Below are positions 9,968 through 17,469 of a DNA stretch of 40,930 nt, piece by piece (position 1 is the first letter of the stretch; every line of letters begins with the position of its first letter). Origin of the DNA: a virus; the IMG/VR virus record IMGVR_UViG_3300009285_004514, positions 1 to 40,930 of that record; one strand, given 5' to 3'. Position numbers and translations under genes: made by a program. The notes beneath the pieces were generated by a model. The model was not told where the DNA came from. It ran no database searches and saw only the letters and a program-made list of their open reading frames with translations.

Positions 9968-10131
9968 AATGGATTGACGAGTATCAAAGTGGCAAGTCTG
10001 GCATATATCCGTATCAGGTTGCTTTGCAAGTTTGCGCTGAGTTCGTTATCCCGATAGAAGAAGCACAAGACTATGTTGCAGAGCATATCAAACGAGTTTT
10101 GAAAGGAATTGAAAATGAACGAAAACAATGA
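9919..10131 (+). CDS. Cassette gene: hypothetical 70-aa helical protein
   Basis: Starts 49 bp inside the end of the two-HTH gene, in another frame, and reads a coherent helical protein (ANKILKWIDEYQSG, EEAQDYVAEHIKRVLKG). No family is recognised. The next ORF starts within its end behind an AAAGGAATTG ribosome site. The long overlap is unusual for this window and could reflect compact cassette organisation. Confidence 0.5.
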   Translation: MATNNERETPLANKILKWIDEYQSGKSGIYPYQVALQVCAEFVIPIEEAQDYVAEHIKRVLKGIENERKQ

Positions 10132-10357
10132 TGGAATAAAAGCAGATGGAAAGTATTACACGCCTCAGCGCATTGTTGATATTGCCACAGGCACAGGCGC
10201 ATTTTTGAAGAACGCCGCCGATAGCGTGATTGGTAATCCACCTTACGGCTTTCCAACACAGCACGCACCTGACCGCCTTTGGCGTAGGCAGGCGGGCGTT
10301 TTGGTTGTCGTTATTGTTCTGCTGGCGGTGGCTCTAATAGTCATCGGCGGCAGGTAG
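10115..10357 (+). pseudogene. Cassette gene: condensed N6-adenine methylase relic with attC-encoded membrane helix
   Basis: An 80-residue product that contains, within ~45 residues, the signature pieces of type I/IIG-style N6-adenine methylases: GKYYTPQRIVD, then ATGTGAFL (SAM motif I) and VIGNPPYG (catalytic motif IV). In real enzymes these lie 70-100 residues apart, so the interior has been deleted and catalysis is unlikely. From residue ~48 the frame runs into the attC-like repeat and reads a hydrophobic helix (VLVVVIVLLAVALIVIGG) before the stop. It could be a decayed fragment or a new membrane micro-protein. Confidence 0.6.
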
Positions 10358-10372
10358 TGCAAGCCGTTGGGT
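10251..10372 (+). repeat. attC-like site 1 (122 bp)
   Basis: R''-like TTCCAAC (10251-10257) pairs with R' GTTGGGT (10366-10372). Inner arms also pair: CACCTGACCGCC on the left against GGCGGCAGGT on the right, with small bulges as in attC folded strands. The long loop encodes the C-terminus of the methylase relic. Its left arm and loop start closely resemble those of the last site at 13603. Confidence 0.75.
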
Positions 10373-10396
10373 TGCTCTTTGCAAAGGAAGGTTCTG

Positions 10397-10627
10397 ATGG
10401 AAGAAATTTTGAAGCGAGTGATTGAGCAGTTACAAAGTTTAGAATGGGGCGAAGCGCAGGAAAACGTAGACGGCGCACTTGCATATCTTGGTTGTGCTGT
10501 GCAAAATTTACGCAACCCAACAACGGGTGCAGTGGATTTGCTACCTGCCTCCGCTTGCTGTGCCTCGTATGTGTTCGATGGTACTCATCACAAAGATTGT
10601 CGGTACGCGCAACCCGCAAACCACTAA
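10397..10627 (+). CDS. Cassette gene: hypothetical 76-aa protein
   Basis: Starts 24 bp after the previous core site. The N-terminal half is a helical soluble domain (EEILKRVIEQLQSLEWGEAQ). The C-terminal ~37 residues (Cys-rich: SACCASYVF, KDCRYAQ) are read from within the following attC-like site. No family is recognised. The original gene may have ended near the repeat, with the present tail supplied by the cassette recombination site. Confidence 0.5.
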   Translation: MEEILKRVIEQLQSLEWGEAQENVDGALAYLGCAVQNLRNPTTGAVDLLPASACCASYVFDGTHHKDCRYAQPANH

Positions 10628-10643
10628 CCCAAGTCCGTTAGGT
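10515..10643 (+). repeat. attC-like site 2 (129 bp)
   Basis: R'' ACCCAAC (10515-10521) pairs with R' GTTAGGT (10637-10643). Left inner arm GTGCAGTGGATTTGC pairs with right GCAAACCACTAAC. The left arm is nearly the same as that of the site at 13249. The repeat overlaps the end of the preceding cassette gene, and the next cassette ATG lies six bases beyond the core. Confidence 0.8.
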
Positions 10644-10648
10644 GGCTA

Positions 10649-11254
10649 ATGCAAAAGTATCGAACGATTGTCGCAGACCCGCCCTGGAAGTATGGCAAGT
10701 GGGGCAAGGCAAGTGAAAACAGCATTTTCGCTGGCAGTGTTCACAATGTTGATATTGCCTTGCCTTACCCGTCAATGTCGCTTGCAGAAATAGCCGCCTT
10801 GCCTATTCCCGATTTGGCTGAAGTAGATTGTGAATTGTATGTTTGGACAACTCAAAAGTATTTGCCTCACACTTACCCGCTTCTTGAAAAGTGGGGTTTC
10901 AAATACTGCGAAACTCTTACATGGTGCAAAGAGCCACGCGGCACAGGTCAAGGCGGTTTATTCACTCCGACCACTGAATTTATAGTTCATGGTCGCATCG
11001 GTAAAATGCCAAAGAAACAAAGGCTTGATACTACATGGTGGAAGGTAGCGCGTCCGAATGTCCACAGCAGAAAGCCCGAAAGTTTCCAAGATGTGATTGA
11101 GCAAGTAAGCGATATGCCACGTCTTGAAATGTTTGCAAGAAGGTTTAGGTTAGGCTGGCACTCATGGGGCAATGAAGTAGAGTCTCATGTCGAAATACCG
11201 CTACGCCACCTAACACCGCATGCACTGGACGGCGCAACTCGCGCCGAAAATTAG
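10649..11254 (+). CDS. Cassette gene: MT-A70-like adenine methyltransferase
   Basis: This 201-residue protein has the DPPW catalytic motif (residues 10-13, in TIVADPPWKYG), the signature of MT-A70-family N6-adenine methyltransferases. Further family features are LYVWTTQKYLP, the mid-protein FKYCETLTWCKE strand and the C-terminal KPESFQDVIE...RLEMFARR block. Length suits the phage/bacterial MT-A70 group. Such solo enzymes modify DNA, usually for protection from restriction or for regulation; a partner nuclease is absent. The final ~15 residues are read from the attC left arm. The ATG is almost on the core site, so any promoter must lie outside the cassette. Confidence 0.85.
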   Translation: MQKYRTIVADPPWKYGKWGKASENSIFAGSVHNVDIALPYPSMSLAEIAALPIPDLAEVDCELYVWTTQKYLPHTYPLLEKWGFKYCETLTWCKEPRGTGQGGLFTPTTEFIVHGRIGKMPKKQRLDTTWWKVARPNVHSRKPESFQDVIEQVSDMPRLEMFARRFRLGWHSWGNEVESHVEIPLRHLTPHALDGATRAEN

Positions 11255-11313
11255 AGGTCTTGCAAAATGGTGTTGCGTGTTCAATGCGCCGCCAGTAATG
11301 CAAACCGTTCGGC
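11208..11313 (+). repeat. attC-like site 3 (106 bp)
   Basis: R'' ACCTAAC (11208-11214) faces R' GTTCGGC (11307-11313), a one-base departure from GTTRRRY. Inner arms GCATGCACTGGACGGC and GCCGCCAGTAATGC pair. It begins inside the methyltransferase gene. The internal loop holds CTTGCAAAATGG, like the leader of other cassettes, but no gene. Confidence 0.75.
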
Positions 11314-11336
11314 GGCACTTCCAAAAGGAGAAAGCC

Positions 11337-11639
11337 ATGTTAAATAAAATTGAAATCGAAATTGAATTGCTGCGTGATCTGGTTGATGCCAGTGGTTATG
11401 TCTCTACCTTCTACACTATGTTCCTAAATCACGAAACACCAGAAGATTGTGGAGATTTGAATGCAACCGAATATCTCGCCAATGAAGCGTCGTCTATTGC
11501 AGAGCGTGGTCGCGCGGTCTTGGAAGCCGCCGAACAAAAGCGTGCACTGGACGGGCTTTGGGACTGCGCGAATTGTGATAATCGTCAAATCGGTGGCGGC
11601 TTCGCAGAATGTCCAAACTGTGGAACCGCCCGCCGCTAA
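11337..11639 (+). CDS. Cassette gene: small protein with attC-encoded zinc ribbon
   Basis: This 100-residue protein follows an excellent ribosome site (AAAAGGAGAAAGCC before the ATG). Residues 1-65 form a helical domain (KIEIEIELLRDLVDASGY...). Residues ~76-98 are a zinc ribbon with CANC and CPNC knuckles, and this ribbon is encoded entirely within the following attC-like site. The N-terminal domain is not recognised. The ribbon may be a functional adaptor or a by-product of reading through the repeat; regular CxxC spacing favours function. Confidence 0.65.
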   Translation: MLNKIEIEIELLRDLVDASGYVSTFYTMFLNHETPEDCGDLNATEYLANEASSIAERGRAVLEAAEQKRALDGLWDCANCDNRQIGGGFAECPNCGTARR

Positions 11640-11654
11640 CGCAAACCGTTAGGC
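11529..11654 (+). repeat. attC-like site 4 (126 bp)
   Basis: R'' GCCGAAC (11529-11535) and R' GTTAGGC (11648-11654). Inner arms AAGCGTGCACTGGACGGG and CCCGCCGCTAACGC pair. The loop is coding: it supplies the zinc ribbon of the preceding gene, whose stop lies 9 bp before the right core. Confidence 0.75.
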
Positions 11655-11682
11655 AACTTGTTCCGCAACCAAAAGGAGTCTT

Positions 11683-12318
11683 ATGAAAGAGTACCATAAA
11701 ATCCAAACAGTGTTCTTGCGCGATCCAGCCACCAAATTCAAAACGTTACTTGAAGGCGAGTTTGCCTTACCAGAGTTCAAATATCTGGCAGGTAACGAAT
11801 GGGTGTTCACTGAAAAGGTGGATGGCACAAATATCCGCGTGATGTTTGATGGCGATCAAATCACATTCGGCGGCAAAACAGATGACGCGCAAATCCCCGC
11901 CTTGCTTGTAACTCGCTTGCAAGATGTATTCCTTCCACAAATCGAAACATTCAAGGCGAAGTTCACCGATGGCGTTTGTCTCTATGGCGAAGGCTACGGA
12001 GCCAAGATACAAAAGGGTGGTGGTAACTATCGTCCAAATCAAGATTTTGTTTTGTTTGATGTCAAGATTGGTGATTGGTGGTTAGAACGTTCATCTGTCG
12101 AAGAAATTGCAGGTGCTTTAGGTCTTGATATTGTTCCCATTATTGGAACCGGCACGCTTTACGATATGGTCGAAAAGGTAAGGTGTGGTTTCAATTCCAT
12201 TTGGGGCAACTTCCAGGCAGAAGGAATCGTAGCTCGTCCATCCTGTGAATTGAAGTCTCGCAATGGGCAACGTATCATTACAAAACTGAAACATCGTGAT
12301 TTCAGTGGCGTTGCCTAA
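11683..12318 (+). CDS. Cassette gene: Rnl2-like RNA ligase
   Basis: This 211-residue protein shows the nucleotidyltransferase motifs of ATP-dependent RNA ligases in order: motif I EKVDGTN with Lys45 as the adenylation residue, motif III region GVCLYGEGYG (~97-106), IIIa FVLFDVKIG (~122), motif IV AEGIVARP (~181) and motif V ITKLKHRDF (~199). It is shorter than T4 Rnl2 and lacks a C-terminal domain. RNA ligases of this group seal nicks in RNA and can repair cleaved tRNA. Start after AAAAGGAGTCTT. The stop codon lies inside the attC R'' box, a typical cassette arrangement. Confident on family; the substrate is unknown. Confidence 0.88.
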   Translation: MKEYHKIQTVFLRDPATKFKTLLEGEFALPEFKYLAGNEWVFTEKVDGTNIRVMFDGDQITFGGKTDDAQIPALLVTRLQDVFLPQIETFKAKFTDGVCLYGEGYGAKIQKGGGNYRPNQDFVLFDVKIGDWWLERSSVEEIAGALGLDIVPIIGTGTLYDMVEKVRCGFNSIWGNFQAEGIVARPSCELKSRNGQRIITKLKHRDFSGVA

Positions 12319-12404
12319 CACAGCGTCCACCCGACAAGGGCGGGCGTAGGCTCTAAATCAATTATTAGGTTTGCCGCCCTTGCGGGTAACGCAAACCGTT
12401 AGAC
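12313..12404 (+). repeat. attC-like site 5 (92 bp), best-formed
   Basis: R'' GCCTAAC (12313-12319) and R' GTTAGAC (12398-12404). Almost the whole arms pair: GCGTCCACCCGACAAGGGCGG on the left with CCGCCCTTGCGGGTAACGC on the right, with a few extrahelical bases. It follows the RNA ligase and precedes a small membrane-protein cassette. This is the clearest attC in the array. Confidence 0.85.
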
Positions 12405-12434
12405 CGCCCCTTGTGGGCAGAAAGGTTTTGCAAA

Positions 12435-12578
12435 ATGAGAGATTGGGTTATGTGGCATGTGGGTTGGTGGGGCATGTATGGCGTATGGGCGTTGCATGAA
12501 GCTCCTGCAAAAATCGCCGTTGCCTTTGCTGCAATTATTATCTATGCCGTCATCCATGCGAAATGGAAGGCGGCATAA
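12435..12578 (+). CDS. Cassette gene: small membrane protein (47 aa)
   Basis: This short ORF has a Trp/Met/Gly-rich N-terminus (WVMWHVGWWGMYG) followed by a hydrophobic helix (residues ~24-40, KIAVAFAAIIIYAVIHA) and a basic end. The ATG is preceded by TTGCAAA, the leader shared with other cassettes. The stop codon TAA lies inside the next R'' box. No family is recognised; single small membrane proteins are common in environmental cassettes. Confidence 0.6.
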   Translation: MRDWVMWHVGWWGMYGVWALHEAPAKIAVAFAAIIIYAVIHAKWKAA

Positions 12579-12663
12579 CAAAGCGTGCACCTGACGTGCG
12601 GCAGGCTGCGGTCATAATTGGACAGTTACCTGTGCCACACACAGGTAACGCAAACCGCTGGGC
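12573..12663 (+). repeat. attC-like site 6 (91 bp), altered right core
   Basis: R''-like GCATAAC (12573-12579) faces GCTGGGC (12657-12663), where the invariant GTT has become GCT. Arms CGTGCACCTGACG and CAGGTAACGCAAACC pair in the usual places, and an extra TTACCTGTG/CACAGGTAA hairpin fills the loop. The altered cleavage triplet suggests a weak or inactive recombination site. Confidence 0.7.
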
Positions 12664-12676
12664 AGATAGGAGCGCA

Positions 12677-12811
12677 ATGAAAAACGCTGGAATTTGTGGT
12701 AGTTGTGAGTACTTCGTAAGAATGAACGATGTGATTTTATCCCCTCGTGGTGCTTGGCTCTCACCACCCGCAAGTAATACAGCCGTTGGGTTGCTTCCTT
12801 GCAAAGGATAG
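12677..12811 (+). CDS. Cassette gene: Cys-containing micro-protein (44 aa)
   Basis: Starts 13 bp after the altered core. The N-terminus has a single CGSC knuckle (residues ~7-10). Everything after residue ~15 is read from the next attC-like site. No second metal knuckle exists, so it looks like a truncated zinc-ribbon gene cut back to its first knuckle by the cassette end. Translation is uncertain. Confidence 0.4.
   Translation: MKNAGICGSCEYFVRMNDVILSPRGAWLSPPASNTAVGLLPCKG
12721..12791 (+). repeat. attC-like site 7 (71 bp)
   Basis: Right core GTTGGGT (12785-12791) with AAGTAATACAGCC before it. The left end AATGAAC (12721-12727) is a weaker R'' match. Inner arms CGTGGTGC and CACCACCCG pair. 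It is the shortest and least regular left arm of the array. The leader TTGCTTCCTTGCAAAGG follows the core, as after site 1. Confidence 0.6.
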
Positions 12812-12818
12812 GTGCATT

Positions 12819-13244
12819 ATGGGTTCGAGTCGGTCCGCTTATATTGGCGTGTATTTCAAGGTCTACATGCCGAAAGAAAAATACATCAGCGGTGAAAGGC
12901 AATGCCCGAAGTGTAAAAAATATGTATCAAGCACATATTGTCAAAACGACGGAACGAAAACGGTAGAGGTTGAAAAAGAAAGATTGTCTAATTTTCACGA
13001 GTTATGCGAATCGGTTTTTGGAGACGAAGACCAATTTTCAACAGGAAATATTGACAGTAATGAATTCGAGATTGTTATGGCAAATAGTGATAATCAGCCT
13101 GGTTACTTTTACGTTTCGGATGAGATTGAGCAACCATTGCCACAAGAAGATTATTCAGGTGATTGGCAAATTCTCGCAAATGCACTTGATGAGCGCGGCA
13201 TAAAATACGAGAAACGCTTTGGGATTGTGTCTTATTGGTCATAG
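12819..13244 (+). CDS. Cassette gene: hypothetical 141-aa protein
   Basis: A soluble protein with an N-terminal beta-strand (SAYIGVYFKVYMPKE), a CPKC knuckle with a later Cys (~residues 29-42), and a long acidic domain (EDYSGDWQILANALDERG). It resembles small phage or cassette proteins that begin with a SAYIGVY-type strand, but I cannot name a family. Start after AAAGGATAGGTGCATT. The stop lies a few bases before the next R'' box. Confidence 0.6.
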   Translation: MGSSRSAYIGVYFKVYMPKEKYISGERQCPKCKKYVSSTYCQNDGTKTVEVEKERLSNFHELCESVFGDEDQFSTGNIDSNEFEIVMANSDNQPGYFYVSDEIEQPLPQEDYSGDWQILANALDERGIKYEKRFGIVSYWS

Positions 13245-13248
13245 CGCA

Positions 13249-13377
13249 ACCCAACACAGCGTGCAGTGGATTTGCGGGACTCTGCGCGGTTTACGAGATT
13301 TTTCTTCGGTCAAGTTTTTTCTCATCCCGAAGTTTTATCTCGCCCCTCCCGCAAACCAGTAACGCAAGCCGTTAGGT
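13249..13377 (+). repeat. attC-like site 8 (129 bp)
   Basis: R'' ACCCAAC (13249-13255) and R' GTTAGGT (13371-13377). Arms AGCGTGCAGTGGATTTGC and GCAAACCAGTAACGC pair. The loop holds a further hairpin (CGAGATTTTTCTTCGG ... CCGAAGTTTTATCTCG) and no gene. Left arm and length closely match site 2. Confidence 0.85.
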
Positions 13378-13413
13378 AGACTATAATTGGCTCAAAAAAA
13401 GGAGCATGGCAGG

Positions 13414-13695
13414 ATGAGAGAATTTGAAGTATTGGCTTATAAATTAAGTTCAATTCTCGCGGAAATAACCAGCAGGATCGAAGAATTGCACAACGGCAAA
13501 GACATCACGATAAGCAACGAAAGGGCATGGTCAATTATCCATAGAATGCAAGAGATCATTGACTGGAGTTTTGTAAAAGCGAAAACTCCAGAACAAAAAG
13601 ATGCCGAACGTCGCTCGCACCTGACCACCTTTGGCGTTGGCACGCTGGCGTTCCTCGCCGGCTTTGGTGTCTGTTGGTTCGTGTTTGTCCACTAA
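13414..13695 (+). CDS. Cassette gene: helical protein with attC-encoded membrane tail
   Basis: A 93-residue protein from the ATG at 13414 (AAGGAG upstream; an upstream TTG at 13387 was not chosen). Residues 1-62 are helical and charged (REFEVLAYKLSSILAEITSR...). Residues ~70-92 form a hydrophobic helix (VGTLAFLAGFGVCWFVFVH) read wholly inside the following attC-like site. This gives a tail-anchored topology. No family is recognised. Confidence 0.55.
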   Translation: MREFEVLAYKLSSILAEITSRIEELHNGKDITISNERAWSIIHRMQEIIDWSFVKAKTPEQKDAERRSHLTTFGVGTLAFLAGFGVCWFVFVH

Positions 13696-13726
13696 ATCGG
13701 CGGTCAGGTAAAGCCAGCCGTCGGGC
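13603..13726 (+). repeat. attC-like site 9 (124 bp), right end of the array
   Basis: R'' GCCGAAC (13603-13609) faces GTCGGGC (13720-13726), a core with GTC instead of GTT. Inner arms CACCTGACCACC and GGCGGTCAGGT pair. The left arm and loop start (CACCTGACCrCCTTTGGCGTwGGCA) match site 1 closely. Phage-type sequence resumes 12 bp later. Confidence 0.75.
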
Positions 13727-13738
13727 TTTGGAGCATTG

Positions 13739-14169: not shown

Positions 14170-14218
14170 GCACCCAGCCTTCCGTCTCGCGAGGGACGGC
14201 AGGCTGGGTGCTTTTGTT
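14170..14218 (+). terminator. Intrinsic terminator with GNRA-capped long stem
   Basis: An 11-bp stem GCACCCAGCCT/AGGCTGGGTGC, one mismatch, then a 7-bp stem ending in a GCGA tetraloop, followed by TTTTGTTT. It lies between the promoter at 14111 and the gene at 14250, so it may end a ~70-nt RNA or attenuate the packaging operon. Confidence 0.8.
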
Positions 14219-15272: not shown

Positions 15273-15860
15273 ATGCCCGCCCGCAAGCCAGCTGGACTGA
15301 TCACCCGCGACGAAACGAAGGAGGACAAGCGCGTACGCGTCGAAGCCGAAGCGGCCATGACGCCGTGCACGCCGCTCTCGAAGAACCCGCCCGCTTCCTT
15401 GAAACGCAACAAGGGTGCGCAGGCCGTCTGGCGCAGGGTGGTGGGACTGTACAATGAGACGGCGGGCAAGATCGCCACAGCCTTCGACGAAAACCTACTG
15501 GTGAAATATTGCCTGGCCGAAGTCGAACTGCTCACACTCGAAGCGATACGGGACGAACTGTTTACAGAGTGGAAGCGCATCGGCAAACAGGTCAAGCCGA
15601 TGAAGCCGACCGCCGGCACGCTCAGGGATTACCTGAATTTATTGACGCAGTACAACGCGCTGATCGGTCGTTATCAGGGCATGGATGGACGCATCGACAA
15701 CAAACGCAAGATGCTGGTGGATATGGAGCAGGCGCTCTATCTCACACCGAGATCCCGCGCGGGCGTCGAGCCGCCGCTCAAGGAACTCGAGAAGCCGAAG
15801 GACAGCATGGAGAAACTACTGGAAAAGAAAAAGAATGTTCGACCAGTCGAAGGCGGATGA
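15273..15860 (+). CDS. terS: Terminase small subunit (P27 family-like)
   Basis: This 195-residue protein has a basic N-terminus (PARKPAGLITRDE), the P27-type helical core (AQAVWRRVVGLYNETAGKI, then FDENLLVKYCLAEVELLTLE) and the second helix block LRDYLNLLTQYNALIGRYQG. It recognises phage DNA and feeds it to the large subunit (family knowledge). It ends 26 bp inside the terL gene. Identity follows from pattern and position before TerL. Confidence 0.8.
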   Translation: MPARKPAGLITRDETKEDKRVRVEAEAAMTPCTPLSKNPPASLKRNKGAQAVWRRVVGLYNETAGKIATAFDENLLVKYCLAEVELLTLEAIRDELFTEWKRIGKQVKPMKPTAGTLRDYLNLLTQYNALIGRYQGMDGRIDNKRKMLVDMEQALYLTPRSRAGVEPPLKELEKPKDSMEKLLEKKKNVRPVEGG

Positions 15861-17469
15861 AGCCGTCCAATTCATCGAGTTGTTGAAGCATACCAAGAGC
15901 CCGTTCGACGGCCAACCATTCGTGCTGCTGCCGTGGCAGCGTACGATCATCGAACAGGTCTATGGCACGTTGAATGAACGCAGGGTCAGGAAATACAAAT
16001 ATATTTATCTCGAAGTCCCGAAGAAGAACGGAAAATCCGAACTGGTGGCGGCCACCGCCCTCCTGCATATGTTCTTCGACGGCGAAGTAAACGGGGAGGT
16101 CTATGGCTGCGCGGGCGACAAGGAACAGGCCACGCTGGTCTTCGACGTGGCAGTGGACATGATCGAGCAGGTGCCTGCGCTCAAGAAGCGCGCCAAGATG
16201 AACTATTCCACCAAGCAAATCACCGACCGCGAGACGGGAACGTTTTACAAGGTCGTTTCCGCTGAAGCGTATACAAAGCATGGCTTGAACGTCAGTGCGG
16301 TCATATTCGACGAATTGCACGTCCAGCCCAACCGCGATCTGTTCGACGTGATGACCAAAGGCGCGGGCGCCACACGCCGACAGCCGATTTGGTGGATGAT
16401 CACCACCGCGGGCAACGACCCCGACCGCCTATCCATCGGCTGGGAAGTGCATGAGAAGGCCGTCGAGATCGTCAAGGCGCGCGAAACGGGCAACCCCGAA
16501 AAGGATGTGGCCACCTGGTATCCCGTCATCTATCATTACAACGGGGAGGATGTTTGGAACGAATCGAACTGGGCCAAGGCCAACCCGTCCCTGGGCTATA
16601 CGTTCACGCTGGACGAGCTGCGCGAGTCTGCCAACGAAGCCAGGTTATCCAAAGCCGACGAGAAACTTTTCCGCTGGCTGCGCCTCAACCAGTGGAACAC
16701 CACCAAACTTTCGGGCTGGCTTCCGCTCGACCTGTTCGATTCAACTGTCGGGTCGTGGAGCCGCAACGACCTGCTCGGCAAGGAATGCTATATCGGCGGC
16801 GACTTTTCCACCACCACCGACCTGTCTGCCGTGGCGCTCATCTTCCCGCCGCAGGAAGGTCTCCCCGATTGGCGCGTCATTTGGGACTGCTGGATTCCCG
16901 AAGACAACATGCAGGAGCGCATCCGCACCGATCATGTCCCATACGATCAGTGGGTGAGCGACGGCTGGGTCATCTCTACGCCTGGGGATGCAATAGGTTA
17001 CAGGCGCATCAGGCAGAGATTTTTGGAATACAAAAATCTCTATAATGTGATTGAACTCGGCGCTGACCGCACCTTTGCATCTGCGCTATTGCAATGGTTG
17101 GAAGAGGACGGTATTACCTGTGTGGAGGTTCCACAAAGATACACTGAATTGACCGACCCGATGAATACAATCGAGACTCTCCTGCGCTCTAAAATCCAAA
17201 TTCCCGACCCCGAGAACGAAGGGCAATTCGTCGAAGCCCCCGCGCTGACGCATGAGGCGCATCCCGTGGCGCGCTGGTGCTTCGGTAACACGTCCATCGC
17301 CATGAACGGCAACGCACAGATCAAGTATGTAAAGGAACGCAAAGGCAAGCGCTCGGTGCAGACCAAGCGTATCGACTTGATCGCCGCCTGGGTGTGCGGC
17401 ATGGCGCGCGCCAAGTTCTACGGCTCGCACAAGTCCATTTATGCGGAACGAGGCCCGATCATTTTTTAA
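15835..17469 (+). CDS. terL: Terminase large subunit
   Basis: This 544-residue protein has a Walker A-like EVPKKNGKSE (~residues 61-70), a Walker B VIFDELHVQ (~155-163), the coupling motif MITTAGND, and a nuclease domain beginning with GGDFSTTTDLSAV (~321). The order matches the HK97-type Terminase_1 family. The ATG at 15835 sits inside the terS end; an in-frame upstream reading overlaps terS and was rejected. It provides the packaging motor and the nuclease that cuts the concatemer. No intein or truncation is seen. Confidence 0.92.
   Translation: MFDQSKADEAVQFIELLKHTKSPFDGQPFVLLPWQRTIIEQVYGTLNERRVRKYKYIYLEVPKKNGKSELVAATALLHMFFDGEVNGEVYGCAGDKEQATLVFDVAVDMIEQVPALKKRAKMNYSTKQITDRETGTFYKVVSAEAYTKHGLNVSAVIFDELHVQPNRDLFDVMTKGAGATRRQPIWWMITTAGNDPDRLSIGWEVHEKAVEIVKARETGNPEKDVATWYPVIYHYNGEDVWNESNWAKANPSLGYTFTLDELRESANEARLSKADEKLFRWLRLNQWNTTKLSGWLPLDLFDSTVGSWSRNDLLGKECYIGGDFSTTTDLSAVALIFPPQEGLPDWRVIWDCWIPEDNMQERIRTDHVPYDQWVSDGWVISTPGDAIGYRRIRQRFLEYKNLYNVIELGADRTFASALLQWLEEDGITCVEVPQRYTELTDPMNTIETLLRSKIQIPDPENEGQFVEAPALTHEAHPVARWCFGNTSIAMNGNAQIKYVKERKGKRSVQTKRIDLIAAWVCGMARAKFYGSHKSIYAERGPIIF

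Follow-up and report, generated by a model that had tools for sequence, protein, structure and literature searches.

Integron recombination sites (attC) are normally treated as non-coding. In a 40,930-base virus contig (IMG/VR record IMGVR_UViG_3300009285_004514, positions 1 to 40,930; this whole stretch is ‘the window’ in what follows), we see a tandem array of attC-like sites whose cassette genes run into the sites themselves: five cassette open reading frames (ORFs) extend past the left arm of their site (sites 1, 2, 3, 4 and 9), and those of sites 1, 2 and 4 have the right-arm TAG or TAA itself as their stop codon. Taking the array together with its relatives in other viral records, we consider it likely that cassette genes of this family are translated through their attC, and that modules coded by the loop between the arms are exchanged at the R'' box. 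The sequences point to this through the coupling of reading phase to a right-arm stop codon, an enrichment of zinc motifs, purifying selection (acting on zinc tails as well as the tail coded by site 9), the reassortment of bodies and tails, and a switch point at R''.

As we picture it, this is a phage integron cassette array without an integrase, in which a cassette gene would be translated across its own attC, the right arm providing the TAA (or TAG) that ends it; the stretch separating the arms (the loop), which earlier attC work found nearly dispensable for recombination, would offer free coding space. Most loops would yield a neutral tail, about a quarter of read-through tails a small metal-binding module, and a few a membrane helix. 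These modules would be swapped among unrelated bodies, the switch taking place in the R'' box at the 5' end of attC, with small indels restoring the frame where body and tail arrive in different phases. An integron integrase may do the switching, through recombination of attC top strands with a cut at R'', and the tails may help small phage accessory proteins as adaptors that bind nucleic acid or protein or anchor them in a membrane; we infer both the translation of the tails and the identity of the swapping enzyme.

Reading phase and the right-arm stop codon

Sites were collected with a detector built from two position weight matrices (PWMs), one for the left arm (R''-L'') and one for the right (L'-R'), derived from 98 and 73 distinct arms that were gathered starting from exact matches to the right arm; above 14 bits it makes 450 matches across the scanned loci, and a single first-order Markov simulation of those loci yields 0. 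Two exact arm patterns retrieved 85 and 77 stretches from viral_contigs, a choice that biases the sample towards well-conserved sites, and scanning the window with 134 loci (the pattern stretches plus loci from other searches) gave 429 distinct attC sites. Loci L091, L136 and L137 were excluded before counting, L138 and L139 were also kept out of the whole-cassette comparison, and identical attC copies were counted once. The detector finds no site in Tetrasphaera phage TJE1, a reported attC carrier (PMC9892861), and is therefore specific to the present attC family, missing other phage attC. The right-arm pattern matched in 1 of 398 Pseudomonadota genomes, at a locus without attC by the detector, and a tblastn search of ORF 4 against plasmids and phages returned no match.

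Two ORF callers were used. The first and cruder takes the longest ORF, with a body of at least 150 nt and 1.3 times the next, and drops small bodies, where most zinc tails sit; the second looks for a Shine-Dalgarno sequence and ATG near the cassette start, the loop not being consulted. Phase counts with the second caller leave out the 142 of 421 attC that lack such a call and take 243 of the 279 called sites, namely those in which the right arm has a stop triplet in its set position, as is usual in this family. All p-values are nominal, several tests having been tried.

This right-arm stop is in phase in 151 of 195 frames used by a cassette ORF, as opposed to 50 of 331 unused frames (p 3e-47), or 85/105 against 22/165 when each loop-or-body cluster contributes a single site. 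With the cruder caller the counts are 44/75 against 30/127 (p 1e-6), becoming 185/253 against 97/480 without its length-ratio filter and 28/48 against 23/80 for bodies of at least 300 nt. By class of tail, the stop is in phase in 46/51 zinc-type, 6/7 helix and 99/137 remaining tails. Among 194 cassettes lying between two attC, 90 ORFs end on the right-arm stop and 46 in the loop, the others ending before R'' (20), at the R'' TAA (17), in the left arm (7), in R' (9) or beyond (5). Stops within the loop are depleted in used frames with the Shine-Dalgarno and ATG caller (46/150 against 137/270 unused, p 9e-5), with a stratified odds ratio of 0.43 and a median of 0.34 with one site per loop cluster. 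Across the viral family, the length of attC and the phase of the ORF appear to be coordinated, and such coordination would make little sense unless the site is translated; the counts support a reading of these sites as the 3' ends of genes, terminating on the right-arm stop codon.

A chromosomal integron from Pseudomonadota (L189), with 27 attC of similar length, provides a contrast: none of its 26 ORFs ends inside an attC, 14 stopping before R'', 10 at the R'' TAA and 2 beyond the site. It is a single array and not a survey, the only clean one that Pseudomonadota yielded from 30 integrase-centred loci and 20 upstream regions, the others being too weak to count; its minus-strand matches were taken as the palindromic shadow of the plus-strand array.

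An earlier interpretation of the window from its letters (the sequence-only reading) had at least five cassette ORFs running into their attC, and five is what we find, with a change in membership. Of the Cys-containing tails that it placed at sites 2 and 7, the first stands; ‘site 7’ is a right-arm relic with no left arm, where an ORF (12677-12811) reads through the lone arm into the next cassette's leader; the last Cys lies in that leader, beyond R', so that the tail is not coded by attC. The fifth case is instead site 3, which codes the final residues of ORF 3, the stop lying within the loop.

Reassortment of bodies and tails, and the switch at R''

The two halves of the site-4 gene are found elsewhere in different company: its body recurs in L089 (90% identity) with a different attC after it, and its zinc tail in L090 (76%) on a different body, at a site that has lost R'. 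In the wider sample, bodies are unrelated in 124 of the 127 loop-homologous pairs in which each member has an ORF call, and loops differ in 48 of 55 body-homologous pairs; one and the same body is joined to a different Cys-rich tail in each of L007, L116 and L045, and another ends in a zinc ribbon in L003 but in a basic tail in L046. Shifts of a single base by which the frame is kept are seen directly after the left arm between L062 and both L100 and L101, and, in the left part, between window site 1 and its relatives (L086, L032, L093 and L092); in our reading of the alignment, the spacer after R'' is also one base longer in site 4 and L090 than in L007.

The point at which one tail gives way to another can be seen in 13 pairs with the same body and different tails. 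Identity in the variable R'' bases is 0.85, against 0.53 in random attC pairs, and beyond R'' it is 0.77 against 0.63 in the spacer, 0.82 against 0.73 in L'' and 0.38 against 0.31 at loop positions 20-40; two of the 13 pairs (L089/window and L044/L106), out of register in this ungapped comparison, were kept in the means. The switch falls at R'', identity being like that of the bodies through its variable bases and near the attC background from the spacer on.

In standard cassette recombination the bottom strand takes part and is cut at R' (the 3' end of the site), so that in ordinary attC recombination a cassette keeps its own tail. The suggestion of the sequence-only reading that cassette recombination could attach ready-made tails to new N-terminal domains survives in its outcome, since tails do sit on unrelated bodies, and not in its route; exchanges at the R'' end of the site imply a different reaction from the one it envisaged. 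Recombination of the top strand at R'' offers a plausible candidate route for the swap: in a study of Vibrio attC, altered sites with a recombining top strand did so in R'', deletion of the loop (the variable terminal structure, VTS) had little effect on recombination, and replacement of a 65-bp loop altered it only about two-fold (PMC2727003).

The same reassortment might come about by homologous recombination or template switching within the conserved left arm of ~20 nt, without an integrase; this is a fair rival to the top-strand R'' reaction, and we would give it a little under an even chance. L003 and L046+7427 are identical across the entire left arm before they diverge, and most records have no integrase; yet in the 13 same-body pairs identity drops from the spacer after R'', not at the end of the arm, and integrase genes adjoin four such arrays. 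An integron integrase above the curated cut-off (TIGR02249) is present in 4 of 43 records, the window included, namely those of L003, L046, L067 and L100, and in all four it is found immediately upstream of the array, pointing the same way (L190, L191, L193 and L194; records G001, G015, G022 and G029). Terminase or portal genes are found in 27 of 42 records chosen for holding attC tails or relatives. With the integrase as the agent, phage integrons may act as domain shufflers, recombining attC top strands at R'' so that the site becomes a mobile C-terminal exon (zinc ribbon, membrane anchor or neutral tail), complete with its stop codon, for any small protein that comes in; we advance this tentatively, as something possible that falls somewhat short of probable.

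Cassettes also move as units, since near-identical cassettes sit in unrelated flanks. Whole cassettes recur at 92-99.6% identity amid such flanks, and L036 (9145-9393) and L048, from two virus records, hold one cassette at 99.6% with flank identities of 0.28 and 0.30, which suggests recent cassette transfer. It is among the relatives of the window that this mobility is seen.

Zinc ribbons, helices and selection on the tails

Motifs of the form C..C-C..C occur in 44 of 1287 plus-strand frames: 39 of the 534 that are open for at least 30 codons upstream, and 5 of the other 753. Two Cys/His pairs are present in 51/195 used against 6/331 unused frames (43/104 against 3/165 when clustered; 53/234 against 7/387 over all attC sites with an ORF call), being carried by roughly a quarter of read-through tails. 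With the cruder caller and bodies of at least 300 nt, the corresponding figures are only 4/48 and 2/80, so that the zinc effect lies mainly in small proteins.

At E-values up to 0.01, the Pfam matches of 45 tails (44 plus that of L090) include 13 to DZR, 10 to Zn_Ribbon_1, 8 to Zn_ribbon_3, 5 to DnaJ CXXCXGXG and 4 to RanBP, most scores lying below the gathering cut-offs where these are shown; the site-4 tail passes none. Its AlphaFold2 (AF2) model, with a predicted local distance difference test score (pLDDT) of 77 from a 45-row alignment, is matched best in Foldseek by RanBP2/NZF zinc fingers (template modelling score, TM, 0.73; root-mean-square deviation, rmsd, 1.0; E 0.49), and sequence, model and Foldseek ranks agree on a C4 zinc ribbon of the RanBP2 type, with CxxC..CxxC in two beta hairpins. 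Judged by such tails, the proteins that bear them would bind zinc or membranes. In L069, two different cassette bodies within one locus carry nearly the same Cys/His tail (TCKCGSKDGYHAAWCN). Two loci from a zinc-tail scan of genome contigs were set aside as unrelated, only 17 to 20 residues having matched.

Between site 4 and L090 we count 10.5 synonymous and 6.5 nonsynonymous changes, a nonsynonymous-to-synonymous ratio (pN/pS) of 0.17; read in its two remaining frames, this DNA gives 1.96 and 1.21. Other zinc or Cys tail pairs give 0.25-0.54, the site-9 helix family 0.21-0.42 (L010 0.33, L048 0.21), the site-1 helix family 0.86-1.48, and the basic tail pair L036/L075 0.95. In a permutation test that re-places the observed substitutions, with one pair per cluster, 33 of 63 changes in zinc tails are nonsynonymous where 47.1 are expected, none of 2000 permutations being as low (three clusters, of which L003/L046 alone is not significant); helix tails give 15.3 of 28 against an expected 18.9 (P 0.048; two clusters, the signal being carried by site 9). 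The site-1 helix family conserves hydropathy, not residues, and holds it better than random substitution does, only 0.2-2.3% of simulations being as hydrophobic. These patterns indicate purifying selection on the zinc ribbons and the site-9 helix, with generic tails neutral; the site would be read as coding in general, and constrained as protein only in the zinc modules and the site-9 helix.

The sequence-only reading is partly supported by these results. The complete CxxC...CxxC ribbon that it saw at site 4 is borne out; so is the left part common to sites 1 and 9 (40 nt, 88% identity, family D5), which is read in different phases. Of the two hydrophobic helices coded there, that of site 9 holds and that of site 1 does so in part, for its hydropathy. 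The constraint that it expected a dN/dS analysis to reveal is there in the zinc tails and the site-9 helix and missing from generic tails (16 clusters); random stops or a lack of constraint, which it took as arguing the other way, do not describe the ribbons or the site-9 helix, and lack of constraint does describe the generic tails. The finding is real, stronger than first seen, yet narrower.

Several observations weigh against attC sites as coding, exchangeable gene ends. Tails other than zinc and helix tails show no amino-acid constraint (152.8 of 213 changes nonsynonymous, 154.1 expected; P 0.41; 16 clusters), and homologous loop pairs that are both read stand in different frames in 28 cases and in the same frame in 30 (58 pairs). 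Our first stop-avoidance test, with the cruder caller, was null (44/91 used against 79/150 unused); the signal appeared with the Shine-Dalgarno and ATG caller, and the choice of caller matters for this test. The Foldseek E-value of the short ribbon, 0.49, is weak. The window itself lacks an integron integrase, and in the Vibrio study wild-type attC recombined poorly when its top strand was transferred, recombinants being some ten thousand-fold rarer and located in R' (PMC2727003). When the bottom strand is folded by minimum free energy (MFE), the R ends pair in sites 3, 5, 8 and 9 but stay apart in sites 1, 2, 4 and 6, so that folding may be poorer in some of the sites richest in coding sequence; the R''/R' match averages 4.7 of 7 in zinc-tail sites and other sites alike. 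That the tailed proteins are produced is, finally, a conclusion drawn from sequence.

The first two of these points also favour an explanation in which the right arm merely supplies a stop, the tails being tolerated and functionless and the zinc motifs and helices accidents of palindromic GC-rich sequence. Termination alone does explain much of the phase signal, non-zinc, non-helix tails being still in phase in the proportion given above. Yet zinc motifs are ~14 times commoner in used than in unused frames, purifying selection is indicated for the zinc tails and the site-9 tail, one-base shifts preserve ribbon or helix frames, and unrelated zinc-ribbon types recur at one and the same place; we regard this explanation as unlikely. 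Less likely still, and disfavoured, is a superposition of attC arms on genes already ending in a zinc ribbon or helix (cassette genesis), with tails inherited and not swapped, for although whole cassettes move as units amid unrelated flanks, the 124 loop-homologous pairs with unrelated bodies and the 48 body-homologous pairs with different loops speak against it.

If attC codes selected, exchangeable domains, as we favour, integrons would create new proteins besides reordering genes, and both the size of attC and the diversity of its loops would gain a functional explanation; the matter also bears on how cassettes acquire their attC.

The array in the window and its relation to known systems

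The array lies in a single orientation directly ahead of an HNH-terminase block (Table 1), G+C at 10.2-13.7 kb being below that of the flanks; the window encodes a terminase large subunit at 15730-17469, together with a portal, a major capsid protein, an FtsK-like protein and an HNH endonuclease. The eight sites that the two-arm PWM detector finds, all on the + strand and spanning 10251-13728, have two arms with R''/R' and L''/L' cores, stand in tandem and have about one gene each; six right arms have GTT as their crossover triplet, the exceptions being site 6 with GCT and site 9 with GTC. Neither a tyrosine recombinase (PF00589) nor an integron integrase (TIGR02249) was found in the window, and the array is of the CALIN type (cluster of attC sites lacking integron integrase), not a complete integron with its intI gene. 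In G001, G022 and G029 the array lies between integrase and terminase, as the window array precedes the terminase. Past the array and ahead of the HNH gene, an inverted repeat of 17 bp at 14170-14211 (94% complementary) with T-rich sequence after it is perhaps a terminator.

Within the cassettes, the body of ORF 1 (10115-10246) has the methyltransferase-like motifs TGTGAFL and NPPYGF only ~9 residues apart, its matches to Eco57I/N6_Mtase being weak (E 0.04-0.08 only); it looks as though most of the domain between the motifs had been deleted, yet the frame is open and fused to the helix tail. The RNA ligase cassette (11683-12318) has a 72% identical stretch, annotated as RNA ligase, in three Manatee Spring phage records.

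Table 1. Sites, cassette ORFs and coded modules of the array (bits are PWM scores of the left and right arms)
Feature	Position	Strand	Remarks
Cassette ORF 1	10115-10357	+	Shortened N6-methyltransferase-like fragment entering site 1; stop is the right-arm TAG
attC-like site 1	10251-10374	+	18.5 and 20.3 bits
Hydrophobic helix QAGVLVVVIVLLAVALIVIGGR	10289-10354	+	Coded by the site 1 loop; Kyte-Doolittle maximum 3.61
Cassette ORF 2	10397-10627	+	Cys-containing tail; stop is the right-arm TAA
attC-like site 2	10515-10644	+	22.6 and 2.3 bits (weak right arm)
Cassette ORF 3, MT-A70 methyltransferase	10649-11254	+	PF05063, E 8e-23
attC-like site 3	11208-11315	+	29.2 and 26.5 bits
Cassette ORF 4, small body and zinc-ribbon tail	11337-11639	+	Body relative L089, tail relative L090
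attC-like site 4	11527-11656	+	R'' from ~11527, detector hit from 11530; 16.7 and 32.6 bits
Zinc ribbon LWDCANCDNRQIGGGFAECPNCGTARR (CxxC..CxxC)	11556-11636	+	Coded by site 4; stop is the right-arm TAA at 11637-11639
Cassette ORF 5, RNA ligase	11683-12318	+	PF09414, E 5e-18; stop is the R'' TAA of site 5
attC-like site 5	12313-12406	+	32.8 and 27.2 bits
Cassette ORF 6, hydrophobic 47-aa protein	12435-12578	+	Stop is the R'' TAA of site 6
attC-like site 6	12573-12665	+	33.4 and 28.5 bits
Lone attC right arm (‘site 7’)	12771-12793	+	No left arm of its own; found by the PWM detector
Cassette ORF 8	12819-13244	+	Stop upstream of R''
attC-like site 8	13249-13379	+	30.9 and 30.4 bits
Cassette ORF 9	13414-13695	+	Tail coded by site 9; stop at the end of the loop
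attC-like site 9	13603-13728	+	9.4 and 16.5 bits
Hydrophobic helix TTFGVGTLAFLAGFGVCWFVFVH	13624-13692	+	Coded by site 9; same tail on other bodies in L010 and L048

Integrase-less attC arrays have already been reported in phages, so that the array itself is not new; the phage attC clusters and integrons of Qi et al. 2023 (PMC9892861) resemble the window in their attC arrays, methyltransferase cassettes and same-orientation arrays, and some phage attC are IntI1 substrates (same source). The present account differs in what it reads from the sites, translation through attC, attC-coded domains and tail exchange going unmentioned in the abstract, section list and section 3.4 of that paper. In searches of open-licence papers we found none that brings integrons and attC together with zinc ribbons or with domain shuffling, and among the papers listed on translation within attC we saw no report of selected attC-coded domains. 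A metagenome pipeline that retains only ORFs overlapping attC by at most 50 nt (PMC7370490) would drop many attC-overlapping genes of the present type.

The closest cases on record, ORF-11 of attI1 and the short ORFs in attC (PMC8876359), are like the phage tails in being a translated recombination site with a stop drawn from core-site bases; they differ in that they are described as leader or coupling peptides aiding translation of the next cassette, not as the folded C-terminus of a cassette protein. Among protein modules, the attC tails resemble RanBP2/NZF and other C4 zinc ribbons, the difference being that the phage ribbons are coded inside a recombination site.

In shufflons and the invertible tails of specificity genes, a site-specific recombinase swaps C-terminal coding segments behind a constant N-terminal part. 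There the segments are inverted behind one gene, between inverted repeats, whereas the sites of the window are direct, in tandem and on one strand, the bodies are unrelated and it is the recombination site itself that is exchanged; the phage attC array works like a shufflon, without being a member of that class.

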